From an uncultured Kordia sp. (lineage in GTDB: Bacteria; Bacteroidota; Bacteroidia; Flavobacteriales; Flavobacteriaceae): 42,233 bases of DNA. The stretch spans positions 1 through 42,233 of the forward strand of contig NZ_CANLEA010000035.1 of NCBI RefSeq assembly GCF_947489565.1, in the 5' to 3' direction. Under the pieces are notes generated by a model. That model was given only the letters and a program-made list of their open reading frames with translations. It searched no databases and was not told the DNA's origin. This document shows, in pieces, positions 7,827-40,382 of the stretch. Position 1 is the stretch's first letter. Every line of letters starts with the position of its first letter. A program made the position numbers and the translations under genes.

Positions 7827-7914
7827 TTGGACTAAAGGAAACTGCATTTCGTCTAAAGATAGATTCGTTTAAGGTGTTTTGGGCAAAATCGTCTGCGATT
7901 CCCAACTACTTTTG
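7827..7914 (+). promoter_or_regulatory. LytTR-like operator and -7 box (site A)
   Basis: Two 9-bp direct repeats, TTGGACTAA (7827-7835) and TTCGTCTAA (7848-7856), start exactly 21 bp apart; 51 bp after the second begins TACTTTTG (7907-7914), a match to the Bacteroidota -7 consensus TAnnTTTG. The space between the repeats includes GGAAACTGCAT, shared with sites B and C. A 9-bp site, 12-bp spacer, 9-bp site is the layout known for LytTR-family activators. The predicted transcript has a leader of about 70 bases before the REC-GT2 gene. The site lies in the 273-bp divergent gap and could also control the operon starting at 7719. Confidence 0.65.
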
Positions 7915-7992
7915 ACCTGTAAGTCATTCAGAAAACAACACAAATACAACTGAATATTACACAAGAATATGAATCATTAAAAACACAGTACG

Positions 7993-9177
7993 ATGAAAAT
8001 ATTAGCCATAGACGATCAGAAATTAGTTTTAATTCCATTAGAAAGTAGATTACAGGAATTAGGATACCAAGTACTCACAGAAACAAACGCATTGAAAGGC
8101 GCTGAGTTATACGATATGTTTCAGCCAGATTTAGTAATTGTAGATATGAATATGCCAACTGTTTCCGGAATGGAAATCGTACAACATATTAGAAGAGATA
8201 GACAAGATAATACACCAATTATGATATTATCTGGAAATACCGATGATGAAATGATTACGAAAGGTTTTGATTTAGGTGTGAATGATTATATGAAGAAACC
8301 ATTGAGCTTGAATGAAGTTTGTGCTCGTGTGAAACGATTGATTGGTGTTCCAAAACATACAGCAGTCACACATACAGATACAGTTATGATTCAGCAAAGA
8401 TGTGTTGGTGTTGTGATTCCATGTTATAACGAAGCAGAACGTTTGTTAAGCACTGAATTTACCAATTTTATTGACAAGAATTCTGGATATCATTTGTGTT
8501 TTGTGAATGACGGAAGTAAAGATGCTACGTTAGAAGTTTTGCACGATTTACAGAAAGGAAGAGAAGATTTTATTACCGTATACGATTGTGAAAAGAATGG
8601 TGGAAAAGCAGAAGCTGTTCGTTTGGGAATGTTGCATATGGCACAGAGAGCTGATTTGGATTATATTGGATTTTTAGATGCAGATTTATCGACTGATTTA
8701 GCAGATTTTGACGAATTGGTTTCTACGATAGAGAATTCTGATTTTAAGATTGTAAGTGGTTCTAGAATTAGCAGAATGGGCGCAAATATTACCAAAGAAT
8801 CTGCCCGTAAAGTTATTAGTATGACGATTAATTTGATTATTAGAAATATTCTGTCCATGAACTTTAAAGACACGCAATGTGGCGCGAAGATTTTTCATAA
8901 AGATGTAATCAATCTAGCGTTTGACAAGAAGTTCATTACGAAGTGGTTGTTTGATGTAGAGATTTTTATGCGTATGCGTAGACATTTTGGATTGGACAAA
9001 GCAAAAGCAATGATGTGCGAGAAGCCTTTGAAACGTTGGATTCATGCTGATGGTTCTAAGCTGTCTATGAAAGATTCAATCAAAATCATTGGTCAGTTAG
9101 GACAAATTGCTTGGTCGTACAGAAGCAAAAAAAAAGCCTCAACTAAAGAGGTAAATACAAATTTTGAAATTGCATAA
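7993..9177 (+). CDS. Response regulator receiver domain fused to a family 2 glycosyltransferase
   Basis: This is a 394-residue two-domain protein. Residues 1-120 form a CheY-like receiver with all key residues: Asp7 and Asp8 of the acidic pocket, phospho-acceptor Asp51 (VDMNMP), Ser80 (LSG) and Lys102 (KKP). A linker of about 17 residues leads to a GT2 domain (138-375) with VVIPCYNEAERL, VNDGSKD, the metal-binding DAD at 229-231, and KDTQCGAKIF, as in dolichyl-phosphate glucosyltransferase (ALG5)-like enzymes. No transmembrane helix is seen. It probably makes a lipid-phosphate sugar or adds a sugar to a lipid carrier, with activity or location set by phosphorylation. It faces the GT-C/glycosidase operon across a shared intergenic region holding site A. 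The domain order is clear; the control mechanism is inferred. Confidence 0.88.
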   Translation: MKILAIDDQKLVLIPLESRLQELGYQVLTETNALKGAELYDMFQPDLVIVDMNMPTVSGMEIVQHIRRDRQDNTPIMILSGNTDDEMITKGFDLGVNDYMKKPLSLNEVCARVKRLIGVPKHTAVTHTDTVMIQQRCVGVVIPCYNEAERLLSTEFTNFIDKNSGYHLCFVNDGSKDATLEVLHDLQKGREDFITVYDCEKNGGKAEAVRLGMLHMAQRADLDYIGFLDADLSTDLADFDELVSTIENSDFKIVSGSRISRMGANITKESARKVISMTINLIIRNILSMNFKDTQCGAKIFHKDVINLAFDKKFITKWLFDVEIFMRMRRHFGLDKAKAMMCEKPLKRWIHADGSKLSMKDSIKIIGQLGQIAWSYRSKKKASTKEVNTNFEIA

Positions 9178-9264
9178 TATTTCGACGGTATTGAATATAA
9201 AACTTAAAAAAAGAAAACACGTTTCCCCCTAATTTCACCTGATTCCCCTAAACCTACTATACTT

Positions 9265-9699
9265 ATGAAGATTGGAATTTTAATTATATTCCGTAATGAC
9301 GAAAGAGCTATTGAAGTACAGAAGTTAATTACACTTTTTACAGAAAAGAAGAAATTGAATGTTTGTTTTGTAAACAATGGAAGTACTGACAATACTTTTG
9401 AGCTTTTGAAAGAAATTCAAGAAGAAGCTAGTATTCCGATTTCAATTATTGATGTCAAAAAAAACCGTGGTCATCAAGCAGCCATCAAAGCTGGTGTTCG
9501 GTATTTGACAAGCCAAAACGATTTGCCTTATATATTATGCATGAAGCAGTTTACTTCAAAGGATTATGACTGCTTAGAGAAAGTTTTTAACATCATACAG
9601 CAAGAAAAAGATATTGTGATGGATGTATTTTCAAAAACCAAGCGTTTGACACATAAGAATGTATTTTCATTGGATGTTGTTTTGGAGAAAGCTTGTTAG
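9265..9699 (+). CDS. Truncated glycosyltransferase 2-like protein
   Basis: This is a 144-residue protein, less than half a normal GT2 domain. It keeps the N-terminal nucleotide-sugar half (IGILIIFRNDERA, then VNNGSTDNTFELL and KKNRGHQAAIKAG). Where the metal-binding DxD should be, it reads ILCMKQF. The acceptor-binding half is absent. The stop codon lies in GCTTGTTAGGTGTT, which closely resembles the dispersed repeat unit CGCTGTTAGGTGTT found at 42148-42161, so the 3' end may have been replaced by a repeat. It lies 87 bp downstream of the REC-GT2 gene on the same strand. It could be a decaying pseudogene, or a non-catalytic partner of the fusion enzyme. Catalysis is unlikely. Confidence 0.65.
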   Translation: MKIGILIIFRNDERAIEVQKLITLFTEKKKLNVCFVNNGSTDNTFELLKEIQEEASIPISIIDVKKNRGHQAAIKAGVRYLTSQNDLPYILCMKQFTSKDYDCLEKVFNIIQQEKDIVMDVFSKTKRLTHKNVFSLDVVLEKAC

Positions 9700-9940
9700 G
9701 TGTTTGGTCTTGGGTATTAGATGTTAGATCGCTACGCTTTTAGATCGTTTCACTCTTAGATTTTTAGACTTTTGGCTTTGTTGTTTTGAATGTTAAATGT
9801 GGAATTTTAAATTGTTGCTTACTCTTGTGGGCATTACTTTTTTTCATGAATTTATGAATGTTTTTTAAAATGCCTATCTCAAATTAATTTAAATACTAAC
9901 ACGTCTAAAAATCTAGCAATCTAAAATGTCTAAAAAAACA
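9700..9940 (+). repeat. TTAG-rich dispersed repeat and AT-rich spacer
   Basis: Between the truncated GT gene and the terminator at 9941 lie TTAGA units with GCTACGC and GTTTCACTC cores (9715-9765), followed by a segment resembling the unit at 42005-42107 (GTTAAATGT, GTGGAATTTTAAATTG, TTACTCTTGTG). No gene is seen. Confidence 0.6.
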
Positions 9941-9972
9941 AAAAGTGAGCTACAAAACTGCAACTCACTTTT
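9941..9972 (-). terminator. Rho-independent terminator of the spondin-domain gene
   Basis: The arms AAAAGTGAG (9941-9949) and CTCACTTTT (9964-9972) form a hairpin. On the minus strand it is followed by a T-rich tract (TTTGTTTTTTTAG). It lies 80 bp past the stop of the lipoprotein gene that starts at 11423. Confidence 0.7.
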
Positions 9973-10052
9973 CTGGCTATAACTTACCAATCAATTGTTA
10001 AAAATTATGTAGGTTATGCCATACTTACAACATCGATGTTGATCGTTATTAT

Positions 10053-11423
10053 TTAATTAATGGCTTCTACTGTAACTTCGATTAAGTTGTATCCGCCTCT
10101 GTCGTCATTGTTTTGAGTAACTCCTGCTGGAGAACTGATGGTTCCTTTTCCAAATTGAACATCTGTTAATTCTGTAACACGTCTTACAGTAGTGTCTGCA
10201 TCAGCTGCTACGGAAACATTTCCGTTCATTGGTTGTCCATCTCCTAAACCAACTGCTTGATCAAACTCAGTTCCTGAATCGTATAAGTAGTTTTTATAGA
10301 TAACGATGTCTGATTTTACCGTTCCGTCTGCATTGAAAACTTCTATTCCTTGTTGATTGTTTGAGATAAACCAATCGTTTGTAGAAACTAACATGGTTGC
10401 AAAGTTTAATCTTTTACCTTCTTCTACATCAATTTCAAATATAATAGATTCTCCTGGCGCAGCGCCAACTGCACTTTTTACAGCAGTTACACCTTCTAAA
10501 CCATTTAAGTATTCGTATGCGATATCAGCATTTCCATCTTCTGCTAGTTCTTCTAATCCTGAACCTGCAATAGCAACTTCTCCTCTTGTAAAGAATGGCG
10601 ATTGCTCTCCTTGTGTGTAGGCAATTCCAGGAGAAAGTACCGAATATGAAGAGGAAAGACGTAATGGAGCTCCTGTTGAGCCTGTTTCTGAAAACCAGTC
10701 ATAAATTGCTTGCGGCGAACCGTCTTCAGCCAAACTTTCTAAACCATTTGCTCTTACGGGTGCTCCTTCTTCAAATAAGGCATTTGGTTGTGTGTGTACT
10801 ACCAAAATTCCTGGTGTTACATATCCTGGATTGTGTAAAGCTTCTCTGTTTGCTTTTGTGATTGTCAATGTAAATTCTCTCGCAGTAGTATCATACGCTA
10901 GATAGGCTGTTAAATAATTTCGGATATTTCTTCCTGTATTTCTAAAAGCAGGGTTGCTATCTGGTGTTCCTGAGTTAGGTCCGGTTTGATTTGGGGCAGT
11001 AAATTCAGTTGATGGGAAATTGTTTAAGAAGTCTTCATCTGCTTCTGTTCCTGCATCCCACACATTGATATTGTCTGAAATATCACCTGTTAATGGCGTG
11101 TCGCCATCCCATAATTTAATTCCTTGCGGTTGTGTTGCAAAAACCCAGTCGTTACTTTGAGCAAACATATTGGCAAAGCTTACATACGTTCCTTTTGTTG
11201 CTTTAAACGATACTTGATGCGTTGCGTCTGTTGTTGTTAATGGACCTGAACCAATTGTTTTTACATTTAAATAATTGATTGCATTTTTGAGTGTTACTCT
11301 AAATGTTGTTGTAGGAACAACATTGTTTGTGTTGTTGTTAACAATTGTAGCATCGTCGTCGCTGCTACAAGAAGTGAAACCTAAAAGTCCCACAAGTGCC
11401 ATAGATAAAATTGTCTTTTTCAT
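10053..11423 (-). CDS. Surface lipoprotein with two spondin domains
   Basis: This is a 456-residue protein. The start at 11423 was chosen over an upstream ATG (11465) because it directly gives a clean lipoprotein signal, MKKTILSMALVGLLGFTSC, with lipid Cys19. The residues after it (SSDDD) fit the acidic export signal that sends Bacteroidota lipoproteins to the cell surface. Two spondin_N-like domains follow (about 35-230 and 235-456); each carries the family pattern of a VSFA/NFAT strand, a SNDWxF motif, a VxDAGTE motif and a GLExLAEDG segment. Spondin domains are beta-sandwiches found in extracellular proteins, often as metal-stabilised adhesion modules. The gene is monocistronic, with a terminator at 9941-9972. 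The ligand is unknown. Confidence 0.85.
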   Translation of the reverse strand: MKKTILSMALVGLLGFTSCSSDDDATIVNNNTNNVVPTTTFRVTLKNAINYLNVKTIGSGPLTTTDATHQVSFKATKGTYVSFANMFAQSNDWVFATQPQGIKLWDGDTPLTGDISDNINVWDAGTEADEDFLNNFPSTEFTAPNQTGPNSGTPDSNPAFRNTGRNIRNYLTAYLAYDTTAREFTLTITKANREALHNPGYVTPGILVVHTQPNALFEEGAPVRANGLESLAEDGSPQAIYDWFSETGSTGAPLRLSSSYSVLSPGIAYTQGEQSPFFTRGEVAIAGSGLEELAEDGNADIAYEYLNGLEGVTAVKSAVGAAPGESIIFEIDVEEGKRLNFATMLVSTNDWFISNNQQGIEVFNADGTVKSDIVIYKNYLYDSGTEFDQAVGLGDGQPMNGNVSVAADADTTVRRVTELTDVQFGKGTISSPAGVTQNNDDRGGYNLIEVTVEAIN

Positions 11424-11783
11424 AATAATTTTTTTATTGAAGTATGGATACTTGGACGACTGCATGAAAAAAACTTACCGAAATCATCATCACTAAAATC
11501 AATTAATAATAGCTAAAACTTATAGTTTCAATTTTAACTATTGGTTTTAACAATTTTCAATTGACCTGTAAAATATTATTTATCAACCACTTACAACTAT
11601 TTCTCTATAGTTGCTTTTGACATAATTTAACATTTCACTTTTTGTGTTATTTATAACAAAAAGTTTTGAAAATATTTTTAGAGAATGAGTTGAGAAAGCC
11701 TATTTCAATGGACTTTTAATTGTATTTAAGGCGATTTATATTCATAAAAAGATAATTCTTGGAGAGAATAAATAGTCCATAAA
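11424..11783. other. AT-rich intergenic region without a gene
   Basis: This stretch separates two minus-strand genes. It is very AT-rich and contains near-repeated TTTTAACTATTGG/TTTTAACAATTT segments (11531-11560) and an imperfect inverted repeat ACTTTTTG/CAAAAAGT (about 11637-11666). It must hold the promoter of the spondin-domain lipoprotein gene. I see no convincing small gene or RNA. Confidence 0.5.
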
Positions 11784-11816
11784 AAAACTCCAACACTAAA
11801 ATAGTATTGGAGTTTT
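11784..11816 (-). terminator. Rho-independent terminator of the T9SS FG-GAP protein gene
   Basis: The arms AAAACTCCAA (11784-11793) and TTGGAGTTTT (11807-11816) form a strong hairpin. On the minus strand it ends in a run of seven T residues. It lies 26 bp past the stop at 11842. Confidence 0.85.
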
Positions 11817-11841
11817 GTATGATTGTTGTATGTTTTAATTC

Positions 11842-14800
11842 TTATTGCTTGATGAATTTTTGTGTAAATACTTTTCCATCAGATTCCAAACGAAGGATAT
11901 AGTTTCCTGTTTGTAATTTAGAAACATCTATTGAATGTTCTTTTAGTTTTAAGTTCAGTACACGCTTTCCTTCAATATTAAAGATCGTTGCAATTTTACC
12001 AACTAAATTCACTGGACTGTTGATGTTCATGATTTTTCCAACTGGATTTGGATGAATAGCAACACTTTCCAACGTTTCATCAGGAATGCTTAAAGTTTGT
12101 CCTTCTGTAATTACATGATGTGTATTGATTGCTGGATTTACTACATTATCAACTGTACCAGATGGCCAGTAAATAATGATATTAGTAATTGTATCTTCCG
12201 TTCCAATACCAAAGTGTGCATTTAATGTACTCATATAACGGAAACCTTCTCCACTACGTACATCGCGAATTTGTGTTCCTGAAGCAGTGTGTACTTCAAT
12301 TCTAGCACCAATTCCGTTGATATTACTTGCAACTCCTGTCGTGGTAATTTTTACCCAGTTGTTACTGTTTCCAGTATTGGTATATAAAGTCGTTCCTGAG
12401 ATTGCATCAATGAATCCATCGTTATTTAAATCTCCAAAAGAACCATTACTTCCTGAAATTACATTGTCATATACTGTAAATGTCATATTACCATTTCCAA
12501 ATAAAATACTTCCGTTAGAAGCGATGTCTAAGTTTCCGTCATTGTCAAAGTCATATGTAGCATTTTCAATTCCTAAATTGGTTAATGCTGGTAATATTCC
12601 TGAAGAAGCGGTAACATTTGTAAAAGTACCATTTCCATTGTTTCGCATTAGTTTGTGTGTTCCGTCTGCTGTAGAACTAGCTCCCACAAAAACATCCATA
12701 TCTCCATCGTTATCATAATCTCCCCAAGCAGAAGACCATGTTTGTAACGGATCTGCTAAACCAGCAGCAGACGCTACTTCTGTAAAGCTTCCAGTTCCAT
12801 CATTTTCGTGTAATTCATTAATGTTGATGGTAGTTGAACCTCCACGACATTTTGCAATAAACATATCCATGTCTCTATCATTATCGTAGTCAATCCAGAT
12901 AGAACCGTAGTTTCCTCCACCTGCAATATCTCCAAGTCCACCTTGGTTAAAAGTTAAGTTTCCACTTCCATCATTCATATAATATACATTCGGATCAACA
13001 TCATGACATACAAAAGCATCTAAGTTTCCATCTTGATCTAAATCGACAAAGTTTGAACGTTGCGAGAATACATATTCTGATCCTGAAATTTCTGTAAATC
13101 CTGTTCCTGTATCGTTGGCTTTCATGAATGTAACTCCACTTCCTCCACCGTATAATAAATCGGTAAATCCGTTGCGATCAAAATCAGCTGCAGCTAAACT
13201 CCAAGAAGGTGTATTGTCTGCATTTGTGGTGGTAATATTTGTTGCTGTTGAGCTTAATCCTCCAGAAGCTTGCTGATAAAAGATATTTACGTTGGTTGAA
13301 GTAATAGAAACTACATCGTCTAAAAAGTCACCATTCATATCAACAGCAGCTCTTTGGCTACCATTTGTATTTACCGTTGATGTTGTAAAGTCTGCTGGCG
13401 GTGGTGGCGCTAATGTTGAGAAGTTTAATGGTCCGCCCCAAATACTTGCGTCTATTCCACAAATAGCTCGTACATATACTTCATAAGGTGTTCCTGCATT
13501 CAATGAATTCACATTAACACTTGTTGCACTTGAAGCAGTTCCTGCTCCTGTTGGCGCTCCTGTTCCTGCAAGTTGTACTACATATTCCCAAGCTGTTTCT
13601 CCACTGTTAGGCGACCAAGAAATGGTTGCTGAATCTTGTGTAATAGCTGATGCTGTTATACTAGAAGGTGCAATACAGAACGATCCGCAAGTTTCAATAC
13701 GAACTAAATCAATAGACATATCTCCTGAAAAACCAGTTCCTGTACCTGTATGACTAAATTCTACATAAATTACTTGACCTAAATATGAATCTAAATTTAC
13801 ACCAACTGGAACCCAAGCTTCAGATCCGCTTGTTTGTAGTTCTCCTGAAAGTGTAAATTCTGTTGTAAAAGGTCCAGAAGCAGAAGTTCCTATTCCTACA
13901 TTTAAAGTTCCCATATCTGCTCCGTACGCATGTAAGTAGAATGATAATTCTGCGCCATCTGTTGCCGTTGTTAAATCGATTGCTGGACTCACGGCTGAAG
14001 CGGTTGCTGAAGTATTTCCAGAAGCTTCATAGTTCATGAAGTTAGCACCACTAAAAGCGGCATCTGGTCCTGTTCCTCCAGAAGTATTTCCATCAGGGAT
14101 TTCCCAAGAACCATTTCCACTATTCAAATCTCCTGTCCATCCAGATGGTGAGTCAAATTCTTCTGTGAATAGAAATGTAGAAGATCCTGAAGCACAAGTA
14201 ACACCAACTGGTCCTGGTGGCGGACAGTTACTTTGCGTGATAGAATTACTATTGACAACACAGTTTACATCTTGATCATTTTCAATGGTAATAACAATAC
14301 CTGTTGCATTGGCAAATGGTCCAAACAGAACCGTTCCTGCATTGGATAAATTTTGATTGGAACTTCCTTGATTGTCTGAAATCGTTACAGATGTTGCCGA
14401 TCCTAAGTCCGTAACATTAACATCTACTAAAAATCCACCGCTTGTTGCACAATCATCCACCACTGTATAGGTTACTGTAGGATTGGTACAAGTTGCACAG
14501 TTTACGTCAAAATCCCAATGCACGTATCCGTTAGTATCACAGCTAATGGTTCCGTCTGAATTTGCCATGACTGTAATGGTATCTCCACTTGATTGAAATG
14601 TCAATCCTGTTAAGTCACCATTATTTCCATAACCGTTATAAAGTTCGGTTCCGTCAGTATCTAAAACGATCAATTCATCCCAATCGTTTTCTGTTTGTCC
14701 AGCGTTAAATGTTACTTGCAAATCTGATCCATCAGAACTTACAAAAACAAAACTGGTTGTATCATTTGTTGTATAACAATACGTTGTATTTACAGCGCCA

Positions 14801-14880: not shown

Positions 14881-14900
14881 AGGTTGGTTGGTTTTATTGT

Positions 14901-14928
14901 GTTACGAATTTTTAAATACGTTCGTAAC
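14901..14928. repeat. Perfect 8-bp inverted repeat between two genes
   Basis: GTTACGAA (14901-14908) and TTCGTAAC (14921-14928) are perfectly complementary across a 12-bp AT-rich loop. They lie 21-48 bp before the start of the FG-GAP protein gene and after the stop of the cytochrome gene. There is no T tract on either strand, so a protein-binding operator or an mRNA processing hairpin fits better than a terminator. Confidence 0.45.
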
Positions 14929-14949
14929 CTTAGTTTAGTTGATAGTCTT

Positions 14950-16071: not shown

Positions 16072-16241
16072 GTTTTAGTTTAGTTAGTGCACTAATATAA
16101 CAAAATATTAGATGTAATCTTTGATTATTAGAGAGTTACTCTTTATATAAGACAACTGAACGTCTATTAATCCTACCTTTTAAGTGGAATTATTTTCAAA
16201 ATGCTATTTTTCTCAGCTTTATTTTTGTGTTAAAAATTAAT

Positions 16242-17186: not shown

Positions 17187-17263
17187 GGCAATTTTTTAGC
17201 ACTGCAAAAATACGGAGATAATTGTGAAAATCTACATATCCGAGAAACAGTTTACCGCAAGTT

Positions 17264-17572: not shown

Positions 17573-17575
17573 GTA

Positions 17576-17934: not shown

Positions 17935-17950
17935 ATTTTTTCTAATAAAA

Positions 17951-30470: not shown

Positions 30471-30476
30471 TTTTTT

Positions 30477-30560: not shown

Positions 30561-30628
30561 TAGAATTCTTTGGAAAAGAAACAAGACCTTTAGAGTCAAA
30601 ATTCTAGACATTTTCACAGTAAAACCTT

Positions 30629-30919: not shown

Positions 30920-31014
30920 TCGGTGAATTCGTGATTAAAAAAGAATAAGAGAAAAATACAAGAGTGAGAACAATCTAAAATTCAACACTTAGCATTCAAC
31001 ATAACAAAAGAACA

Positions 31015-31077
31015 AGTCTAAAAGCAAAGCGATCTAATATCTAATAGCGATAGCGGTCTAACAGCAAAGCAAATCTA
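31015..31077 (-). repeat. TTAG-rich dispersed repeat supplying the methyltransferase stop codon
   Basis: Inverted units (GTCTAAAAGC, GATCTAATATCTAATAGCG, GGTCTAACAGC, AAATCTAAAA) run to 31080. The TAG stop of the methyltransferase gene (31075-31077 on the minus strand) is the first TTAGA of the array. Confidence 0.65.
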
Positions 31078-31749: not shown

Positions 31750-31799
31750 ACAAACAAATATAACGATAAGACCGCATTTTCACCTTTTCGAAAATTTGG

Positions 31800-31886
31800 T
31801 TAGTCAACAGAAAATTGCATTTCGTCTACAGTTAAACTGATAGCACCGACGATCGCGTTTTTCCCTTTTTTGAGTTTCTAGATTTG
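31800..31886 (+). promoter_or_regulatory. LytTR-like operator and -7 box (site B)
   Basis: Direct repeats TTAGTCAAC (31800-31808) and TTCGTCTAC (31821-31829) are 21 bp apart, separated by a segment with GAAAATTGCA. Fifty bp after the second site begins TAGATTTG (31879-31886), an exact TAnnTTTG -7 element. No TTG -33 element is visible, as expected for an activator-dependent promoter. The gene starts 78 bp after the operator. Confidence 0.68.
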
Positions 31887-31906
31887 TGATGTAAATAACA
31901 AACGTC

Positions 31907-34483
31907 ATGAAGAATATACTACTATTTTTAAGTATCCTTACTACAGCAATTACAAACGCTCAAAACGAACCATTTAACTGCGTTTATAATGCATATTTGT
32001 TTCAATATAATGATGTCTATTCAATTGATTTAGCTTCTGGAAGTTCATTTCTAGTAGCGGAGAATGTAACCTCAGGAAATATCAATGCAGCAGCCTACAA
32101 TCCTACAGATGGATATATTTGGGGCTCGTTAACATCTCCCGCAAAAACCATTGTACGAATTGGTGAAGACTTTCAAACAACCACTTATTATGTAGACGAA
32201 TTGCCTTCTTCAAACAGATACGTTGGCGATGTAAGTGCTACAGGAGTTTATCACTTAAAAGGAGGCGGAACAACCTATTATAAAATTGACGTAGATCCTA
32301 ATTCAGAAACCTACACACAACATTTAAGTACAGAAACTTTATCGCAAAACATAAATATTCATGATTGGGCATTTAATGCAGTTGATAATATGTTATATAC
32401 GGTTGAAAAAGGATCTAATAAACTATACAGAATTAACCCAAATACAAATACAGTACAATCATTAGGTACAGTTCCTATTTTATCAGGTTTAAATTATACC
32501 TATGGCGCTGTATATTTTGATGCTTCTGGACGTTTTTATGTATCTGCCAATCAAACAGGAACTATATATGTAATTCAAGCCGTACAAGATTTAAACGGTA
32601 GTAACGGAATGGTTTCTAATTTGTTTGCTTTTGGACCATCAAGTGCTAGTAATGATGGTGCACGTTGTCCAACAGCGCCAGTAGCTCAGGAAATTTGTGA
32701 TAATGGTATTGATGATGACGGCGATGGTTTGATTGATTGTCAAGATCCTTCTTGCTCAGGTTATGGCGAATGCGAAGTGATCAATCCAGAATCTTCTGGT
32801 GGAAATGAAGGTGGATTGGAAAGCAATGGAAGATTGTCTGATGCTATCAACAAACGTAATTACAATCGTGCAAAAACCAGCTTTAAGTTTGATAGAAGAA
32901 ATGCACCAAAAGTATTAAGATCACAGTTTTATGCAGAATCGAATCCAAATGGTTTTGAATTGCAAGACTTTATTCCATTAGATATTATCAATGAAGATGA
33001 CGCCATCGAGTCTACTCCAGCAGATTTGGTAAACATTACCAATGCTACAGAAATTTATTCGGTAGATTATATCAAAGGAGACAACTCCGTAGCTTCAATC
33101 TTAGCTTTAAAAACAGAAAATGGTGTATATGAACACACAAAGTATATTTGCGATCGTTTGCTCGGCGCAGAATTGATTTCAGTATCAACTATTGATATCA
33201 ACGGACAACAGTTTATAAAATCGCTTATAAAAAACACAGACAATACTGTTGAATTCGTACTAAGTCTTTCGGCAAAAGTAGTGAATAACGATCTGAATTT
33301 TGCTGTAGAAAGTCACTGGAATCTAGACAAATATGAAAGCGATGTAACGTTTTACAACTTTCAAATCTGGTCAAATTCTTTGGATGATTTATACCTTTTG
33401 GGAGAAGAAGTATTGAACTTATTAAGTGTTCAAAAACCAATTTCAGACTATAACAATTCTACGCCACCAACAGTTTTTGTGCGCAAAGGAACCTACGAAA
33501 ATGGTGCGCTCGATTTACAAATCATCAACACAAACGCTACATCAACCGTTGCTTTTGATGCAGGATATAGAACTACGGAAACGAATGAGTTTGACACTAT
33601 GAGTTCATCATTAGACTTGAACGGAAATTACATTACCAACTTGCAAGTGCCAACAGGAAACTTATTTGATATAGGATTTAGAATTGGCGATGGCGTTGCT
33701 ACTCCAGACGATTTATTTATGTCTGATGGTCCTTGGGGAATTGATGATTCGCAAGAAAGCACTACCGTATTGAATTATGAGATTTCACCAAATGATTTCG
33801 AATTTGATGCAGATGTATTTCCAATCGAAAGAAACATAGCATTACATGCAACTACAAGCACTTATTTTGCAGCATACAGAGCCTTGACACCAAGATTCAA
33901 AGCAGTCGATTTAACCGATTATAATACGTTCAACTTTACAGCGAGCGGAACAGGAAAACTCGAAATTGCATTTGTAAAGGCAAGTATTAGCAATTGGGAA
34001 GCACAACCTAAAACACTCATTACACTTACAGATACTGATCAAGAATATAACATTCCAATTTCAAATTTATCATCCACAACAAATGACAATATAGCTTTAA
34101 ACGATGTGAAAACTATCGTATTCACCATCGCTTCCGAAAACGGACAACTTATTACACGTACAATAGACGTATCACATTTATATTTCTCAAGTGAAAGCAC
34201 TTTAAGTGTTTTAGATATTGAAAACGAAACAAAAGCGATCTCAGCGGTTCCAAATCCGATGACATCGAAAACAAACATCCTATTTACTGCAAAGCAATCC
34301 GAGGACGTACAATTAGTTGTTTATGACCAAGTAGGCAAGGTAGTTTATACAATAAAGGTTAGCACCGAAGTTGGTCAAAACACAATCCCCCTAAACCGAA
34401 ATAATTGGCGTCCTGGATTGTATTTCTGTAAAATAGCAGGAAACAAACAAACCTACAAAACCCTAAAACTCATAGTTAAATAA
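31907..34483 (+). CDS. T9SS-secreted protein: propeller-like N-terminal module on a scaffold shared with the next gene
   Basis: This is an 858-residue protein with a signal peptide (1-18, ending TNAQ). Residues 25-255 look like a DUF6923-type beta-propeller (repeated NPTDGYIWG, NAVDNMLYTV and YFDASGRFYV turns). A MopE-like calcium loop, EICDNGIDDDGDGLIDC, follows at about 262-278. From GGLESNGRLSDAINKRNYNRA (about 300) to the end it is clearly homologous to the neighbour at 34757, including YxFxIWxxS and DGPWGID motifs. The last 80 residues are a type A T9SS sorting domain (AVPNPMTSKTNILFTA to LKLIVK). It should be exported and surface-attached or released. Its promoter has the same operator as the neighbour and the REC-GT2 gene, which suggests a matrix or surface role. 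Confidence 0.88.
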   Translation: MKNILLFLSILTTAITNAQNEPFNCVYNAYLFQYNDVYSIDLASGSSFLVAENVTSGNINAAAYNPTDGYIWGSLTSPAKTIVRIGEDFQTTTYYVDELPSSNRYVGDVSATGVYHLKGGGTTYYKIDVDPNSETYTQHLSTETLSQNINIHDWAFNAVDNMLYTVEKGSNKLYRINPNTNTVQSLGTVPILSGLNYTYGAVYFDASGRFYVSANQTGTIYVIQAVQDLNGSNGMVSNLFAFGPSSASNDGARCPTAPVAQEICDNGIDDDGDGLIDCQDPSCSGYGECEVINPESSGGNEGGLESNGRLSDAINKRNYNRAKTSFKFDRRNAPKVLRSQFYAESNPNGFELQDFIPLDIINEDDAIESTPADLVNITNATEIYSVDYIKGDNSVASILALKTENGVYEHTKYICDRLLGAELISVSTIDINGQQFIKSLIKNTDNTVEFVLSLSAKVVNNDLNFAVESHWNLDKYESDVTFYNFQIWSNSLDDLYLLGEEVLNLLSVQKPISDYNNSTPPTVFVRKGTYENGALDLQIINTNATSTVAFDAGYRTTETNEFDTMSSSLDLNGNYITNLQVPTGNLFDIGFRIGDGVATPDDLFMSDGPWGIDDSQESTTVLNYEISPNDFEFDADVFPIERNIALHATTSTYFAAYRALTPRFKAVDLTDYNTFNFTASGTGKLEIAFVKASISNWEAQPKTLITLTDTDQEYNIPISNLSSTTNDNIALNDVKTIVFTIASENGQLITRTIDVSHLYFSSESTLSVLDIENETKAISAVPNPMTSKTNILFTAKQSEDVQLVVYDQVGKVVYTIKVSTEVGQNTIPLNRNNWRPGLYFCKIAGNKQTYKTLKLIVK

Positions 34484-34531
34484 TGGTATAAGATTTTTTT
34501 TCATGGTGATAATTTTTATTGGTTAATTAAG

Positions 34532-34563
34532 AAAAGGCAAAAGAAGTGATTCTTTTGCCTTTT
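34532..34563 (+). terminator. Terminator of the first T9SS paralogue
   Basis: The arms AAAAGGCAAAAGAA (34532-34545) and TTCTTTTGCCTTTT (34550-34563) are perfectly complementary around a 4-nt loop and end in T residues. A near copy follows the second paralogue at 37253-37285. Confidence 0.88.
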
Positions 34564-34649
34564 TTATGCTATTAAAACATTGTTTATACGATTTAAAAAA
34601 CGCTTGAAACACCTTTATTTATTGGCTTTGTAGAGTTTTACAAAAATGG

Positions 34650-34736
34650 TTAGTCTGAAGAAAATTGCATTTCATCTACACTTAAAATGATCGTGCCGTG
34701 AATCGGGTTTTTCGAAGTTTTCAGTCCCTAGCTTTG
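34650..34736 (+). promoter_or_regulatory. LytTR-like operator and -7 box (site C)
   Basis: Direct repeats TTAGTCTGA (34650-34658) and TTCATCTAC (34671-34679) are 21 bp apart, with GAAAATTGCA between them as in site B. TAGCTTTG (34729-34736) begins 50 bp after the second site, and the gene starts 78 bp after the operator. The geometry is identical to site B, although the sequence between operator and -7 box has diverged. Confidence 0.68.
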
Positions 34737-34756
34737 TAATATAAATACAGAATATT

Positions 34757-37210
34757 ATGAAAAAACTACTACTACTTTTAAGCATATTTGCTACGGCAAC
34801 CACCATCGCACAGAACTATCAATATTTAGGTGATTTTACTTCTAACGGAACACCCCTATATTTAGAAACTCCAGGAGATAATGTTTCGGTAGAGACACAA
34901 GAAATGATTAGCAATTCTCTCCCAGAAAGCTATCCTGTTCCAGATTACAATCCGCATTATATTTCGTCTGGTTATGATACTGATTTAAGTATCAATCAAA
35001 CTGCCGATGTTTGGGTAACCTTTATCAGTGAAGGTGCTGGTTACAGAAATGTATTAGGGTTTTACACATATGATCTTAACAATCCTCCAACAACAGCTCC
35101 AAGTAACGAAGACATCACCATTATTTTTCCAAATGCTTCTGCTTTAGGAAGCGGCGGCGGATTGCAAGTTGGTGACAAGGTAAAAATCGGAACTTTTGAA
35201 GCAGGAACAGGAATTGGTTGGGTTTTATTAGCAAACGCATGGAGTTCAAGCGCAAGTACGGTTGGAACAGGTTTGTGGAAATTATATTCTAACCCAGATT
35301 ATAACCCAGAAGCTGATCCAAATTTACGTTACCATAATGTATTATTAAACGATCCAGATAATGAACGTATTATTCTTGGTTTTGAAGACATTCGTCGCGA
35401 CTATGGTTCTTGTGATAATGATTTTAACGATGCTATTTTTTATGTAACTGCAAATCCTTATAGCGCATTAAAAACGACCAATTACGCCGATGTAGAAAGT
35501 TCTTCAAATGTGACTTCAGCTTATGATGGCGGATTGGAAAGTAATGGAAATCTAGCAGGTTTAATAGCACAACGCAACCTAAGAAGAACACAAACTGGAG
35601 ATTCGCAAAATCAAAAACAGTTACAAGCATTTTTTGATAAGCAAACCTATGTTTCCGAAAATCCAGAAAGTGACACAAATTTAGATTCTTATTTACCAGA
35701 TACAGGCATGTTCGGCACCGAAACTGCACACATATCAAGTCCAACAGATTTACTAGAAATAACAAATGCTTCAGAAATATTTGCTTTGGATATGTATCAA
35801 GAAAACACACGTGTTTCTGCGGTATTGGCAACGGCTACGGAAGGTGCTATTTACGATCATTCTAAAGTTATTTGTGACCGATTGAATAATTCATCGCTAG
35901 AAGATGTGCGAACAGTAATTGTAAGAGGTCATCAACTCATCAGTGCTAAAATAAAAAGACCTACAGGCGAAACGGAATATACATTGAGTTTCTCTGTAAA
36001 ATTAGGCGAAGCCGCTAATGAATTGTATAGTTTCTGGAATATTGCGCAATATCCTGAAGGTGATTATTTCAATTTTCAAATTTGGGGAAGCTCATTCTCG
36101 CAAGTATTTACGATAGGAAACCATATTATTGATACACTTACGCTAGAAAAGCCATTGAACAGTCAAATTGTAAATGATGTCATTCCACCAGTATTTGTAA
36201 GTTCTGGTTATTATACGAACGGAAACATTCATTTAAACCTCATCAATAAAGTAAATGCAACTTCTTTTTTATTTGATGCAAACATGGCAGCTAACGAAGT
36301 TTCCGAACGCACTAGCATTTCACAAAATGTTTCTTTAACTGGAGACTGGAATGATACTGTAACCATTGCGACAGGACAGTTGTTTGATATTGGACTCTCC
36401 TTAAGTACAGACGTTTCTGCTCAGCAAGATGCTTTGTATTTAGCTGATGGACCTTGGGGGATTGATTACCAAGAAGACAATGTAATCGTCAATAATTTTT
36501 CGGTAGATAATACAACAGTAGAAGATCTCGAAAACACCTATGAAGTGGAAAGACAAGCAACAGTTTCTGGACAAGTACAAGGAACTATCAATTTGTTCAG
36601 ACATGTATTACCAGGCGATCAAACCTTAGATGTAAGTATGTATGATGCTTTTCAATTTAACATTACCAACTCGCAACCTGTGGAAATTATCTTATTACAA
36701 GAAGGTTTAACCGATTGGAACAACCGTTACAGAGTAACCATTTCACAAAATAATACCGAAACCATGTATCGCATTCCGTTCAATGAATTTGAAGATGGTA
36801 ATGGAAATCCGGCAGATATAAGCAATGTAAAAACCATCATATTTTCAACACAAGGCGATTATCACAGTTACACACCATTTAACATACAAGTACATACTGC
36901 GCGTTTTGGGATGGAAAACACACTTGATATCGCTGAATATGAAATAGAAGCTGCAACAAACAAAATATTGGCTGTGCCTAATCCAATGACAACACAAACT
37001 CAAATACAATTCACAGCCAAACAATCCGAGGACGTACAATTGCTGATGTATGACCAAGTAGGCAAGGTAGTTTATACAACAAAGGTTAAAAGCCAAATTG
37101 GTCAAAACACGGTTTCCCTAAGCCGAAATAACCTGCGTCCCGGATTGTATTTCTGCAACCTAAGCAGTCGTACTCAAACCTACAAAACCCTAAAACTCAT
37201 AGTTAAATAA
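34757..37210 (+). CDS. T9SS-secreted protein: DUF4114 module on the shared scaffold
   Basis: This is an 817-residue protein with a signal peptide (1-18, TTIAQ). Residues 60-235 hold a DUF4114 domain, with VWVTFISEGAGYRNVLGFYTY, GDKVKIGTFEAGTGIGWVL and ILGFEDIRRDYGSCDNDFNDAIF; the aspartate-rich end suggests calcium binding. From GGLESNGNLAGLIAQRNLRR (about 255) to the end it matches the preceding paralogue, with ADGPWGID and the type A T9SS sorting domain. The last 200 bp and the 3' flank are nearly identical at DNA level to those of the paralogue. A tandem duplication in which only the N-terminal ligand or calcium module was exchanged is the simplest reading. Confidence 0.88.
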   Translation: MKKLLLLLSIFATATTIAQNYQYLGDFTSNGTPLYLETPGDNVSVETQEMISNSLPESYPVPDYNPHYISSGYDTDLSINQTADVWVTFISEGAGYRNVLGFYTYDLNNPPTTAPSNEDITIIFPNASALGSGGGLQVGDKVKIGTFEAGTGIGWVLLANAWSSSASTVGTGLWKLYSNPDYNPEADPNLRYHNVLLNDPDNERIILGFEDIRRDYGSCDNDFNDAIFYVTANPYSALKTTNYADVESSSNVTSAYDGGLESNGNLAGLIAQRNLRRTQTGDSQNQKQLQAFFDKQTYVSENPESDTNLDSYLPDTGMFGTETAHISSPTDLLEITNASEIFALDMYQENTRVSAVLATATEGAIYDHSKVICDRLNNSSLEDVRTVIVRGHQLISAKIKRPTGETEYTLSFSVKLGEAANELYSFWNIAQYPEGDYFNFQIWGSSFSQVFTIGNHIIDTLTLEKPLNSQIVNDVIPPVFVSSGYYTNGNIHLNLINKVNATSFLFDANMAANEVSERTSISQNVSLTGDWNDTVTIATGQLFDIGLSLSTDVSAQQDALYLADGPWGIDYQEDNVIVNNFSVDNTTVEDLENTYEVERQATVSGQVQGTINLFRHVLPGDQTLDVSMYDAFQFNITNSQPVEIILLQEGLTDWNNRYRVTISQNNTETMYRIPFNEFEDGNGNPADISNVKTIIFSTQGDYHSYTPFNIQVHTARFGMENTLDIAEYEIEAATNKILAVPNPMTTQTQIQFTAKQSEDVQLLMYDQVGKVVYTTKVKSQIGQNTVSLSRNNLRPGLYFCNLSSRTQTYKTLKLIVK

Positions 37211-37252
37211 TGGTAGTGATTTTTTCATGGTGATTAAATTTGGTTAATTAAG

Positions 37253-37285
37253 AAAAGGCAAAAAGATTGGATTCTTTTGCCTTTT
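37253..37285 (+). terminator. Terminator of the second T9SS paralogue
   Basis: The arms AAAAGGCAAAA (37253-37263) and TTTTGCCTTTT (37275-37285) form a hairpin followed by T residues. It is the duplicated counterpart of the terminator at 34532-34563. Confidence 0.85.
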
Positions 37286-37343
37286 TTGTTGTTTGTAAAA
37301 AGTTTAATTTCGAATCTATTTTAAGCATTAAAAAATTAACATC

Positions 37344-38201
37344 CTGAAAGAACAACTTTATCATATAAAAACAAAGGATAACGAAAACATTGCTCTTTGG
37401 AAATTAAATTCTGAAAAGGTTGATAACAAACATATCTTTTTGACGCATGGGACATTTTCAAATAGAAAAATATGCAGCGGAATTGCATCATATTTAACCG
37501 AAAAAGGGTTTACATGTTGGATAATGGAATGGAGAAATCATGGAAAAAGCTCAAAGAGTAAGCATCCATTTAATTTTGAAACTATCGCAAAATACGACCT
37601 CGAATCAACCTTCGAGTTTTTATTTGATATTCAGAATCTAAATAGTATAGATTGTTTAACTCATAGTGGTGGCGGAATTATTTTGACAATGTTTTTAATT
37701 AACAATCCAAACTATAATTCGAAAATTAATAGCATTACCTTATTTGGAGTGCAAGCTTTTGGTGCAGGAAATAAACTCAATAATAGACTAAAAATATTAT
37801 TTAGTAAATATGTTACTTTTTTAATAGGCAAAGTTCCTTCAAAAGCAGTTGGATCCACTGAACACAGTGAAAGTTATTACACTATGAAACAATGGTTTAA
37901 CTGGAATTTAAAGAATAACTTTATAGGAGAAAATAATTTTGACTATTTAAAAGAAATGAAAAATGTTACTATTCCAATATTATCCATTTGTGCAAAAGGA
38001 GATCGTTTTATTGCACCAAAAGAAGGTTGTGAAGAGTTTTTAAAAGCATTCAAAAATGAAAAAAATAGGCTGCTTTTTTATTCAAAAGAAAATGGAAATT
38101 TAGAAGATTACAATCATAGTCGAATTTTAAAATCTAAAAATTCTAAAAGAGAGATTTGGCCAATAGTAGAAAATTGGATTGCTCACAAAACGCTAAATTG
38201 A
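37344..38201 (+). CDS. Alpha/beta hydrolase, start codon non-standard or lost
   Basis: This is a 285-residue protein if it starts at the CTG at 37344. It has the alpha/beta hydrolase order: oxyanion loop LTHGTFSNRK, then GFTCWIMEWRNHGKS, the nucleophile elbow THSGGG with the Ser, and a late acid strand ILSICAKGDRFIAPKEG. No ATG or GTG precedes the hydrolase core. The first TTG (37440) lies inside the strand before the oxyanion loop, so it cannot be the true start. The frame is open back to 37332 and reads naturally from CTG as KEQLYHIKTKDNENIALW. One substitution may have changed ATG to CTG, or CTG may be used. It converges with the TPR-porin gene (8 bp apart). Substrate unknown. Confidence 0.68.
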   Translation: MKEQLYHIKTKDNENIALWKLNSEKVDNKHIFLTHGTFSNRKICSGIASYLTEKGFTCWIMEWRNHGKSSKSKHPFNFETIAKYDLESTFEFLFDIQNLNSIDCLTHSGGGIILTMFLINNPNYNSKINSITLFGVQAFGAGNKLNNRLKILFSKYVTFLIGKVPSKAVGSTEHSESYYTMKQWFNWNLKNNFIGENNFDYLKEMKNVTIPILSICAKGDRFIAPKEGCEEFLKAFKNEKNRLLFYSKENGNLEDYNHSRILKSKNSKREIWPIVENWIAHKTLN

Positions 38202-38209
38202 GAACTTCC

Positions 38210-40270
38210 TTAAAAACGTTTCCCATCAAAAACCCACTTCAATCGAATTCCAATCTCCGTAAACGTAAATCCTGCTGCCGTTGCGGAAGCAATATTACTT
38301 CGTGTACCAAATATATTGGCCAAACAACGATCGGAGAATTTATATCCCAATTTCCCTTGAAAACGATACGTACTTTGTGAATCTTGATCTTCAATATATT
38401 GCAAACCTGTCGCAGCCGTAAGTTCATAAAACCATTCGTCAACTTTGGTGATGTTTTCATCTTTGATTAAGTTTAAGAAAACTTCGCCAGCGTTGAATGT
38501 TGAAGGACTGAAATAAATAGTTGGCACCTGATTTTCAAAGGTAATGTACTGATAGTTCAGACCGACTTTCAAAGAGGGTTTGCTCAAAAGATTATAGTAC
38601 AACGAAGTAAATAACAAATGTCTGGAATTGTCATCGTTCTGCGCTGTATAATAGTATTGTGTAAACCAACCGAGATTAAAATTGGTGCTTACATTATAAT
38701 TGGCGTATAAATGATTCTGTACAATCTCACGATCTAATAAATCAGCATTGAAACTCTGCAATTCACGTTTATACCCAATAGCTAAGGTTTGTAGTTTAAA
38801 TGGTTTAATGTCCAAGGAAATATCTGCTAATAACTGCGTATAATCGGTAGTTTCGGCAGTTGCAGTAGTAATTCCCAAAGTTCCTTTGAAAGTTATATTG
38901 GGAACTATCTGATAGGCCAAACCAGCCGAAGCCGCGTGCGAAGTCGCTTTGTTATTGGTCACCGTATTGTTTGTCGTTCGATAGGTGTAATTCCCGAGAA
39001 GTTTCAAACGTGTTGAAAACGGAACTTCAACCGTATTTTGCACCGAAAACGCTTCATTATCACCGTTATCAAATGTATACGAGGCTTTTCCATCATAAAA
39101 CGCCGAAAACTTCATATCCAATTCCTTTATAAAGTTCGTCGCATCTTTCTGATTGTCGTAAAATGTCAGTGTTTTTTTTGCGGCAGCATAGGCTTCGTCA
39201 TAACGACCTAAAGCTTTTAAGACATTGGCTTTTCCTAAGTTTCCATCAAAAGACGTGGAATCGTTTACCAAAATCTGATTGTAATCAGCCAAGCTCTTTT
39301 TAAAGTTACTTTTATAGACATTTAAGGTTGCACGCAATGCCAAAATCCAGTTTTCGTTTGGTTGTGTTGAAGTGATTTCATTGATTAAATTTTCAGCTTT
39401 TGCATACTTTTTATTCCAAATTAATGCTTGAATATAACGTTCTTTCGTTTGTTGCGTTACAACGCCATCAACAGTATCTGTCAAACTATCGTATGCCAAT
39501 TGACTTGATTTCAACGCTTGTTTTTCTTTTCCTTTTAAATGTTCAATCAAAGCCCAACCATTCAATACTGTTATTTTATCGGAAACATTTTTAGAGCCTT
39601 CAAGTAATGTATCATATGTTGCTTTTGCTTTGTCTAATTCGTCCATAATCAAGTACAAGTTCGCCAAATTCAACAATGCGTCTTTATCATTCGCAAAAAG
39701 TGACAGACATTCTTTTAATACGTTTTCTGCTTCAGAATACTGTTGCGCTTGCTGTTTTTGGTAGGCATTTCCTAAATAGATGTACTTTTTTGACGTCATC
39801 GCATTCGGATTTCCTGGAGAAACTTCCAATGCTTTATTGACATACTTTAAGGCTGCAGGATATTCTTTCAGGTTTGATAAAGTATTTGCAAAACCTAATA
39901 ACGCAGGAAAACTAGTCGCATTTTCTGTAACTAATTTTTGGTAATACGCTTTCGCGAGATTGAACTCTTGGTTCCATAATAAAGATTCGCCGTAATTCAA
40001 CTTCACTTCAAAATCGCTAGGAAAATCCTTCAATAAGTCTGTAAAGATCGTTTTTGCTTTTGCAGCATTACCATTAAGTCCAACAGCACGACCATAACAC
40101 AAGCGCGCTGTTTTATTCTTTGGATAGTCTTGCAAAACCCTTTTAAAGAATGTTTCTGCTGCTGGATACTTTCCGTTTTCTAAATATGAAAAACCTTCTT
40201 TCATGTTTTGGGCAACACCCAAAAAAGACATTAATAGAAACAAAAAAAGTAGGATATATCGTGTGTTCAT
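38210..40270 (-). CDS. TPR-repeat outer-membrane beta-barrel protein (exopolysaccharide-export porin-like)
   Basis: This is a 686-residue protein. The start at 40270 (MNTRYILLFLFLLMSFLGVAQ) gives a signal peptide; upstream in-frame ATGs only add a hydrophilic stretch that overlaps the promoter. Residues 22-400 contain about ten TPR helix pairs (EGFSYLENGKYPAAETFFKRVL, FPALLGFANTLSNLKEYPAAL and more). Residues 405-686 show alternating amphipathic strands with turn-rich loops and end in DGKRF, a C-terminal aromatic typical of outer-membrane barrels. A periplasmic TPR plus barrel is the layout of BcsC, PgaA and PelB, which carry polysaccharide through the outer membrane; that role is inferred. 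It is divergent from the STAS and flippase genes and shares the intergenic operator. Confidence 0.78.
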   Translation of the reverse strand: MNTRYILLFLFLLMSFLGVAQNMKEGFSYLENGKYPAAETFFKRVLQDYPKNKTARLCYGRAVGLNGNAAKAKTIFTDLLKDFPSDFEVKLNYGESLLWNQEFNLAKAYYQKLVTENATSFPALLGFANTLSNLKEYPAALKYVNKALEVSPGNPNAMTSKKYIYLGNAYQKQQAQQYSEAENVLKECLSLFANDKDALLNLANLYLIMDELDKAKATYDTLLEGSKNVSDKITVLNGWALIEHLKGKEKQALKSSQLAYDSLTDTVDGVVTQQTKERYIQALIWNKKYAKAENLINEITSTQPNENWILALRATLNVYKSNFKKSLADYNQILVNDSTSFDGNLGKANVLKALGRYDEAYAAAKKTLTFYDNQKDATNFIKELDMKFSAFYDGKASYTFDNGDNEAFSVQNTVEVPFSTRLKLLGNYTYRTTNNTVTNNKATSHAASAGLAYQIVPNITFKGTLGITTATAETTDYTQLLADISLDIKPFKLQTLAIGYKRELQSFNADLLDREIVQNHLYANYNVSTNFNLGWFTQYYYTAQNDDNSRHLLFTSLYYNLLSKPSLKVGLNYQYITFENQVPTIYFSPSTFNAGEVFLNLIKDENITKVDEWFYELTAATGLQYIEDQDSQSTYRFQGKLGYKFSDRCLANIFGTRSNIASATAAGFTFTEIGIRLKWVFDGKRF

Positions 40271-40316
40271 ATACTTGATTTTTGACAATTGTAAGTTAAG
40301 CATAAGCTTCCAAACA

Positions 40317-40382
40317 TTCGTCGCAAGAAAACTGAATCTCACCGACGATGAGCCTATTTTCAAAGGATTTCGAAGATATTTG
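40317..40382 (+). promoter_or_regulatory. Weak LytTR-like operator (site D) between divergent genes
   Basis: TTCGTCGCA (40317-40325) and CTCACCGAC (40338-40346) are 21 bp apart and enclose GAAAACTGAAT, which aligns with GAAAATTGCAT of sites B and C at the same offset. The second repeat is degenerate. GATATTTG (40375-40382) matches the -7 consensus except for the first base and lies 58 bp after the start of the first repeat, the distance seen from the second repeat in sites B and C. The register is therefore ambiguous. It lies between the TPR-porin (47 bp from its start) and the STAS gene (67 bp). Confidence 0.42.

Follow-up and report, generated by a model that had tools for sequence, protein, structure and literature searches.

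The 42,233-nucleotide stretch of DNA analysed here (the window, which is the whole of contig C35 of an uncultured Kordia genome, G000, of 6,423,034 bases in 100 contigs) contains three similar pairs of 9-bp direct repeats, sites A, B and C, and a weaker fourth, site D. They lie upstream of genes for a receiver fused to a family-2 glycosyltransferase (REC-GT2), two cargo proteins of the type IX secretion system (T9SS), T9SS-B and T9SS-C, and a STAS-fold protein followed by a flippase. The question that this locus raises is whether the sites are operators of a single regulon, as a first-pass annotation had proposed, and which regulator and signal would then govern it. A LytTR-type regulon, larger than first thought, is well supported. 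Sequence comparison indicates that its regulator is most likely the output of a phosphorelay that senses nitric oxide (NO). Sites A-D are probably operators of this regulator, termed N-LytTR here, by which the relay would switch a surface-polysaccharide and T9SS regulon.

Sites A to D in the window and across Kordia

All four sites are read on the plus strand and are built of 9-bp half-sites in a 21-bp phase. Site A (7827-7856) comprises TTGGACTAA (7827-7835) and TTCGTCTAA (7848-7856), and its -7 box, TACTTTTG (7907-7914), begins 51 bp past the end of the site. Site B (31800-31829) comprises TTAGTCAAC (31800-31808) and TTCGTCTAC (31821-31829), with a third phased position, AGCACCGAC, at 31842-31850 and the box TAGATTTG (31879-31886) at 50 bp. 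Site C (34650-34679) comprises TTAGTCTGA (34650-34658) and TTCATCTAC (34671-34679), with the box TAGCTTTG (34729-34736) at 50 bp. These three sites fit the composite repeat pattern exactly; no match occurred in 100 dinucleotide shuffles of the window, and at up to three mismatches A, B and C are the sole matches in the genome, the reversed-pattern control giving none. The repeats reported by the first-pass annotation are thus real, and so are the exact TAnnTTTG boxes 50-51 bp downstream. Its description of the sites as pairs is exact for A-C, but the unit is better regarded as a phased array of half-sites, of which several promoters have three. The layout of 9 bp, 12-bp spacer and 9 bp had been likened to that of LytTR operators; it is indeed the same as that of the LytTR direct repeats reported in the available part of PMC6193735, and such arrays also occur at the promoters of two paralogous LytTR operons described below.

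The surroundings of site A had been read as unlike those of B and C, and this holds, as site A shares 16/60 and 18/60 downstream bases with B and C, respectively. Sites B and C are alike over 42/60 downstream bases and are therefore probably duplicated promoters.

Site D (40296-40346) consists of TTAAGCATA (40296-40304), TTCGTCGCA (40317-40325) and CTCACCGAC (40338-40346), followed 50 bp past the second half-site by the -7-like box GATATTTG (40375-40382), so that its register relative to the box is that of B and C. A matrix derived from the sites locates D as a weak, positionally conserved site between a TPR gene and the STAS-flippase genes in all nine Kordia genomes that carry the module, i.e., sites A-D with their genes, and the letters of the box downstream of D are identical in 9/9. 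The STAS gene is present in seven of the nine; D precedes the flippase gene in G002 and G006, where the STAS gene was not found. Site D is weak by score alone and becomes convincing because it is conserved, which bears out the earlier suggestion of a degenerate fourth site.

A survey of 99 genomes at up to three mismatches returned 11 with matches. Nine of these are among the 11 Kordia genomes, counting the present one, and the other two, G033 and G052, belong to different genera; the G033 match falls in coding DNA. Site A is identical in all eight relatives, and the copy in the window differs by one base. It precedes the REC-GT2 gene with the box TACTTTTG at 51 bp in 9/9 genomes. Of its 30 positions, 29 are invariant across the nine genomes, compared with 19 among the 50 that follow and 19 among the 45 that come before. 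The -7 box itself is invariant at 8/8 positions. Part of the preceding block is a -7-like box on the minus strand, TATCTTTA (7802-7809; TAAAGATA on the plus strand), for the divergent operon that begins with the gene at 4639-7719. Seven of its eight positions are invariant across the nine genomes and the remaining one is kept in eight, and site A may serve both directions. There are 12 B/C-type sites in the nine genomes, 11 of which have TAnnTTTG at 50 bp. Full-length REC-GT2 genes occur in the same 9/11 Kordia genomes; G001 and G003 gave weak partial matches only. A decayed site-B-like promoter lies beside a methyltransferase gene in G001 (L159, G001:C6, 241092-241178), a genome that lacks the module and N-LytTR, and this relic suggests a recent loss or deletion.

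The regulator operon and recurrence outside the window

The regulon had been drawn around genes of the window, but members exist elsewhere as well. The matrix revealed, near the module in relatives, a site E that reads TTCATCTAC, 12 bp, TTCGTCTAC (TTCATCTACACTTTTTTGCATTTCGTCTAC), shares the spacer core TGCATTT with A, B and C, and occurs once in the present genome, on contig C2. Site E heads an operon of seven genes encoding a receiver (REC) protein, H-NOX, a PAS-kinase, a FIST (NosP-like) protein, a second kinase, an Hpt protein and N-LytTR, and has the box TAAAATTG (TAnnATTG rather than TAnnTTTG) at +50. The products match HNOB, FIST, HisKA, Hpt and LytTR in Pfam, Hpt slightly under its cut-off. 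N-LytTR combines a receiver (PF00072, E 5.3e-20) with a LytTR domain (PF04397, E 4e-22). The FIST protein (PF08495, E 1.1e-39; PF10442, E 1.2e-34) is NosP-like in having FIST N and C domains and in the kinase gene that adjoins its own; no solved structural relative was found for it at E 0.01.

The H-NOX protein matches HNOB (PF07700) with E 1.6e-38 and, over its whole length, PDB entries 6bdd and 6bde (355.7 bits, 180 residues). We take these entries to be the Kordia algicida protein, although the molecule name in the file is aldolase. Residues H102, Y133, S135 and R137 are invariant in 9 aligned Kordia sequences (of 10); presumably H102 is the proximal histidine and Y133, S135 and R137 form the YxSxR motif. 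By sequence, the H-NOX of the operon is identified as the ortholog of Kordia algicida H-NOX, and binding of haem and NO is predicted.

H-NOX is present in 10 of the 11 Kordia genomes, G003 being without it, and site E is found in all 10, in G006 by sequence only as the operon is split over contigs. The present genome has 64 LytTR matches, and proximity alone would therefore mean little. Orthologs of N-LytTR (88-94% identical to the present copy) occur in exactly the nine Kordia genomes with REC-GT2 and sites A-D, and in six of the nine the gene lies ~0.1-1.1 kb from a B/C-type site.

Two further kinds of site were seen in the genus. Site F (TTCRTCTAA, 12 bp, TTCGGCACA) precedes a group-1 glycosyltransferase gene in G006, G007, G008 and G010; it has three mismatches in the present genome, near the start of contig C11, and fell below scoring in the matrix scan of G002, G004, G005 and G009. 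Element S (G000:C2:209636-209860, L322) combines a LytTR-type site of the 9-12-9 layout, followed by TATATTTG at +50, with a conserved non-coding stretch of ~135 nt downstream that ends in a terminator. Each of the 11 Kordia genomes has a copy, those of the relatives being 87-97% identical; with a folding z of -3.18 and a paired change in the terminator stem, seen by eye, the stretch is a candidate small RNA. No curated Rfam family matched at the gathering threshold in the window, L105 or L322.

A search of named genomes with the H-NOX protein gave at least 562 relatives, of which the best 80 loci were kept, all from Flavobacteriaceae or Flavobacteriales and 5 of them Kordia. A LytTR gene (62-94% identity) is present at 76/80, directly after Hpt at 75, and a FIST gene is in the operon at 48/80, 6 of those at low identity. 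Among the four loci lacking a LytTR gene, the contigs of L254 and L258 end inside the operon, while L265 and L268 have sequence past Hpt and no LytTR. Operon promoters were readable at 79/80 loci, and the 75 non-Kordia ones were used for the following counts. With the half-sites as defined from the window and at most one mismatch in each, a pair at 21 bp is found in 29/75, compared with 0 or 1 at each other spacing from 10 to 32 bp and 0 in shuffles. At most two mismatches raise this to 56/75, other spacings reaching at most 7 and shuffles a mean of 0.95 and a maximum of 5. A broader half-site, chosen after these 75 promoters had been viewed, likewise gives 56/75 at one mismatch each (shuffle mean 0.02). 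A third half-site, TTAANCGAA (at most two mismatches), follows at +42 in 33/56, with at most 7 at other offsets. Over the 56 promoters there are 22 instances of TAnnTTT[GA] at 50 or 51 bp past the second half-site; no other offsets come near this frequency, yet these are still a minority. Half-sites in other genera often read TTCGTCGAC.

Within the 1.43 Mb that surround these operons there are 103 pairs, as opposed to 21 for the reversed control: 65 near an operon promoter, 32 elsewhere between genes and 6 in other open reading frames. Inspected by eye, 20 of the 32 precede orthologs of the site-B or site-D gene, 3 precede apparent nucleotide-sugar dehydrogenase genes and another 2 a FIST gene that stands apart from the operon. 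The latter two are in Tenacibaculum (L221 ~5173 and L248 ~5184), where the FIST gene forms a unit of its own with its own operator copy and a -7-like box at 51 bp.

A uniform test of upstream regions, with a half-site widened further beyond the broader version and at most two mismatches in all, gave hits for 72/75 H-NOX operons, 13/16 STAS genes and 23/47 T9SS-B genes, against 20/900 other genes (2.2%) and a rate of 3.3% for random stretches. Because the half-site was chosen after viewing the operon promoters, the first of these figures is not independent; those for T9SS-B and STAS were obtained on different promoters. One LytTR-type regulon, as first proposed, is well supported; the arrays also precede orthologs of the site-B and site-D genes in other genera. 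Site D had tentatively been assigned to the genes on both of its sides. The STAS-flippase side stands, whereas the divergent TPR gene finds no support in other genera, where none of 15 TPR orthologs has a site in the upstream test. For the flippase (0/6), GH5 (0/1) and F-type glycosyltransferase (0/3) the orthologs are too few for a test, and no REC-GT2 ortholog was found in the 75 non-Kordia loci. An ortholog of T9SS-B is present in 48 of these loci, in all 48 on the same strand and 112-3785 bp after the LytTR gene. These upstream and linkage results suggest a wider core made up of the regulator operon, T9SS-B and STAS, to which Kordia would have added REC-GT2, T9SS-C and the glycosyltransferase.

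A scan of 397 genomes of the family with the Kordia core pattern gave 86 with a match at up to one mismatch. Viewing of 30 loci by eye, with gene maps for 12 stretches, G001 included, indicated that the scan is of little use outside Kordia, as several matches lie inside genes and others are a different motif. A related promoter motif, approximately TTATCSRATTTTTTTTGCRTTTCATCTAA, was seen before large secreted genes in several Flavobacteriaceae (L160-L167, L169). Their products presumably resemble choice-of-anchor-L proteins, and this motif possibly marks another LytTR-type regulon.

Candidate readers of the sites

A second regulator, P-LytTR, 66-68% identical to N-LytTR, is encoded in all 11 Kordia genomes, in an operon that in the three genomes in which it was read consists of REC, kinase, Hpt and LytTR genes. 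Its promoter in the present genome also carries a phased array (TTAATCTAT, 12 bp, TTAACCTAC, 12 bp, TTAATCGAA), the last half-site of which is kept by eye in 11/11 genomes (TTAATCGAA; TTAGTCGAA in one). Phased arrays at the promoters of two paralogous LytTR operons argue for LytTR binding, and they also make cross-reading the main rival explanation: P-LytTR may be the main reader of the operators, or both regulators may share them, in which case the link to NO would be partial. The two proteins have a near-identical recognition segment (FLK[IV]HRS...IPVSR), and in B and C the first half-site (TTAGTC) is similar to the P-promoter array. Moreover, site E persists in G001, which lacks N-LytTR, and element S in G003; and a tree places the LytTR of 4/71 H-NOX operons from other genera with the P type. 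These four are from Tenacibaculum and Flavicella (L202, L205, L213 and L234) and suggest that either LytTR may have become the output of the haem sensor. In their second half-sites (TTCRTCTAM), however, A, B, C and E differ from the P promoter, and P-LytTR is present in G001 and G003, yet A-C-type sites and REC-GT2 were not found there, save the site-B relic of G001. The N-LytTR gene also lies near a B/C-type site in the six Kordia genomes mentioned above, and among the 48 non-Kordia loci with T9SS-B after the LytTR gene there is none of the four with a P-type LytTR. Cross-reading by P-LytTR is considered unlikely, though it deserves more weight than the other alternatives.

That a regulator of another family reads the sites, the 9-12-9 layout being a coincidence, appears very improbable. 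The half-sites do differ from repeats in other phyla such as ACCACTTAC (PMC6193735, in the available part), and conservation extends to the spacer core TGCATTT in A, B, C and E. The same spacing nevertheless recurs at the two paralogous Kordia LytTR operons and at 56/75 H-NOX operons elsewhere, with no other spacing prominent, and by eye TTCRTCTAM fits NYCRNYTAN in the register of the LytTR repeats published in the same part of PMC6193735, letter identity being only partial. Copying of DNA by duplication or a repeat element, with no regulatory meaning, would account for the likeness of the B and C promoters (42/60), and is the explanation to which we give the least credence, being largely contradicted already: A differs from B/C outside the sites and is itself invariant at 29/30 positions over nine genomes, as against 19 of the next 50, and site E and the sites of other genera precede different genes, often at a fixed distance from a -7 box.

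Several observations weigh against N-LytTR as the reader of one coherent regulon. The co-occurrence of module and regulator is not independent evidence, since relatives have the two in physical linkage. In G001, site E and the H-NOX operon persist without Hpt and LytTR; the site-B relic there points to a recent loss, but E may have another reader, and element S is present in G003, which has no N-LytTR. The boxes of D and E deviate from TAnnTTTG, and one of the 12 B/C-type sites is without it. In other genera, 19/75 operon promoters have no pair at one mismatch per half-site and 24/47 T9SS-B upstream regions none at two mismatches in all; T9SS-C queries gave 5/41 hits, at least 4 of which apparently fall in the T9SS-B regions already counted (30-32% identity). 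In the present genome a loose two-half-site pattern has 27 exact matches and its reversed control 40, so that half-sites by themselves show no enrichment; the first-pass annotation had named equally good matches scattered inside genes as a ground for doubt, and 20 of the 27 do lie inside open reading frames. None of these 20 has TAnnTTTG at 50-51 bp, in contrast to four of the seven intergenic matches (A, B, C and element S). The remaining three are the regulator operon, with TAAAATTG at 50 bp, one match with TAnnTTTG at 30 bp and one with none within 100 bp. A full-promoter pattern at up to two mismatches is likewise only somewhat above its control over the Kordia genomes (133 matches and 94); at 0-1 mismatch, by our count, 27/33 matches belong to the kinds of site described here.

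Target genes, proposed pathway and known systems

Promoter A precedes the REC-GT2 gene (7993-9177, plus strand; PF00072 E 7.1e-24, PF00535 E 4.7e-21), and the divergent operon begins with a gene for a 1026-residue protein (4639-7719, minus strand) with no Pfam or NCBIfam match. Cargo protein B (31907-34483, plus strand) has a DUF6923 domain and cargo protein C (34757-37210, plus strand) a DUF4114 domain, each with a T9SS sorting domain, and C is ~35% identical to B orthologs across its last two thirds. By eye, a hairpin with a T run (GGCAAAAGAAGTGATTCTTTTGCCTTTTTT, 34536-34565) separates the site-B gene from site C, which fits separate transcription of the two T9SS genes. The gene after promoter D (40413-40691, plus strand) encodes a 92-residue protein with no Pfam match, whose AlphaFold2 model (pLDDT 83.7) has 28 PDB matches at E <=0.001, the best being TM1442, MlaB and SpoIIAA (TM ~0.7); on this model the product has a STAS fold. 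A polysaccharide flippase-like protein (40759-42012, plus strand; PF13440 E 2.6e-9) follows. The module is interrupted in the present genome by household genes at 10053-30470 (among them argC, alr, mscL, thymidine kinase and an rsmI-like gene), whereas its two halves are closer in several relatives; in G006, for example, the site-B gene, TPR gene, flippase, GH5, 1026-residue protein and REC-GT2 start lie within 20 kb without the household genes.

In the proposed pathway, the haem sensors (H-NOX and the FIST/NosP-like protein) would most likely respond to NO and modulate the two kinases, from which phosphate would pass through Hpt to N-LytTR. The regulator would bind the half-sites (~TTCRTCTAM) every 21 bp, ~60-90 bp upstream of the start, the array possibly allowing dimers to bind in two registers, and would activate weak promoters with a TAnnTTTG-like -7 box. 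Predicted to be under its control are the operon that encodes it (E), the REC-GT2 synthase (A), the two T9SS surface proteins (B and C), the STAS-flippase unit (D) and the group-1 glycosyltransferase (F). The -7 boxes put the predicted start at a point relative to which the second half-site is near -65 and the first near -86. These positions are close to the centre near -60 of AgrA repeats (PMC4227749, available part), which suggests activation. The receiver of REC-GT2 may take phosphate from the same relay as a second, post-translational output. Should NO-bound sensors inhibit the kinases in this relay, NO would decrease both the phosphorylation of N-LytTR and the expression of the surface genes, although the sign is a guess.

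More generally, and with somewhat less confidence than doubt, marine Flavobacteriaceae may share a phosphorelay with two haem sensors (H-NOX and, in many, a NosP-like protein) and a LytTR output rather than cyclic di-GMP. The regulator would govern surface build-up by way of operators with two or three phased half-sites, which precede its own operon and the genes of a T9SS surface protein and a STAS switch. Kordia would add the receiver-fused glycosyltransferase, so that NO would act both transcriptionally and post-translationally on polysaccharide synthesis. The literature searched, mostly titles and abstract openings with few subscription journals, contained no earlier account of this LytTR/H-NOX system, nor a description of the signalling pathway of Kordia algicida H-NOX or of what it controls; a molecular dynamics study of that protein exists (PMC7356049, available part). 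For an H-NOX with solved structures, the present analysis names an operator together with a candidate regulator and lists putative targets; it also gives candidate LytTR operators for a family on whose LytTR target sites the literature searched contained little. A concrete model follows of how NO may control surface polysaccharide in marine Flavobacteriaceae, among them a genus with an algae-killing species; the available part of PMC10356946 reports that NO acts in algal-bacterial exchange.

LytTR operators, in the available parts of PMC6193735 and PMC4227749, are 9-bp direct repeats with mostly 12-bp spacers upstream of the promoter. The Kordia arrays resemble the systems described there (AgrA, HdrR/BrsR and LRS-like operons of Bacteroides) in their 9-12-9 repeats and in the occurrence of these at the regulator's own operon. 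They differ in the half-site, TTCRTCTAM or TTCGTCGAC rather than ACCACTTAC, and in often having three phased half-sites. The distance from the second half-site to the -7 box is 49-50 bp here and 34 bp in two Bacteroides examples (11 + 4 + 19, our sum). A further difference is that N-LytTR, a response regulator, would be the output of a phosphorelay and is encoded next to haem sensors.

H-NOX and NosP proteins, in the available parts of PMC8738867 and PMC6769237, act on histidine kinases, some of which are inhibited with NO bound and one stimulated, and NO is linked there to biofilm. By analogy to Shewanella HnoC, Vibrio HqsK-LuxU and V. cholerae NosP-VpsS as described in these parts, the Kordia operon has stand-alone H-NOX and FIST proteins beside histidine kinases, with predicted downstream phosphotransfer. 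Its likely output, in contrast, is a LytTR protein with a defined operator rather than cyclic di-GMP enzymes, LuxU or HnoC, and both haem sensors are in one operon; LytTR is absent from the list of H-NOX neighbourhood families in section 10 of PMC8738867. The target genes recall synthase-dependent systems of the PgaA/PgaC type, with a family-2 glycosyltransferase and a TPR protein that have weak NCBIfam matches to PgaC and PgaA, far under the curated cut-offs (52.8 vs 422.3 and 57.3 vs 366.65 bits, respectively). Unlike in PgaA/PgaC-type systems, the glycosyltransferase in Kordia is fused to a receiver, through which a surface polysaccharide, the predicted product, may be placed under the same relay.

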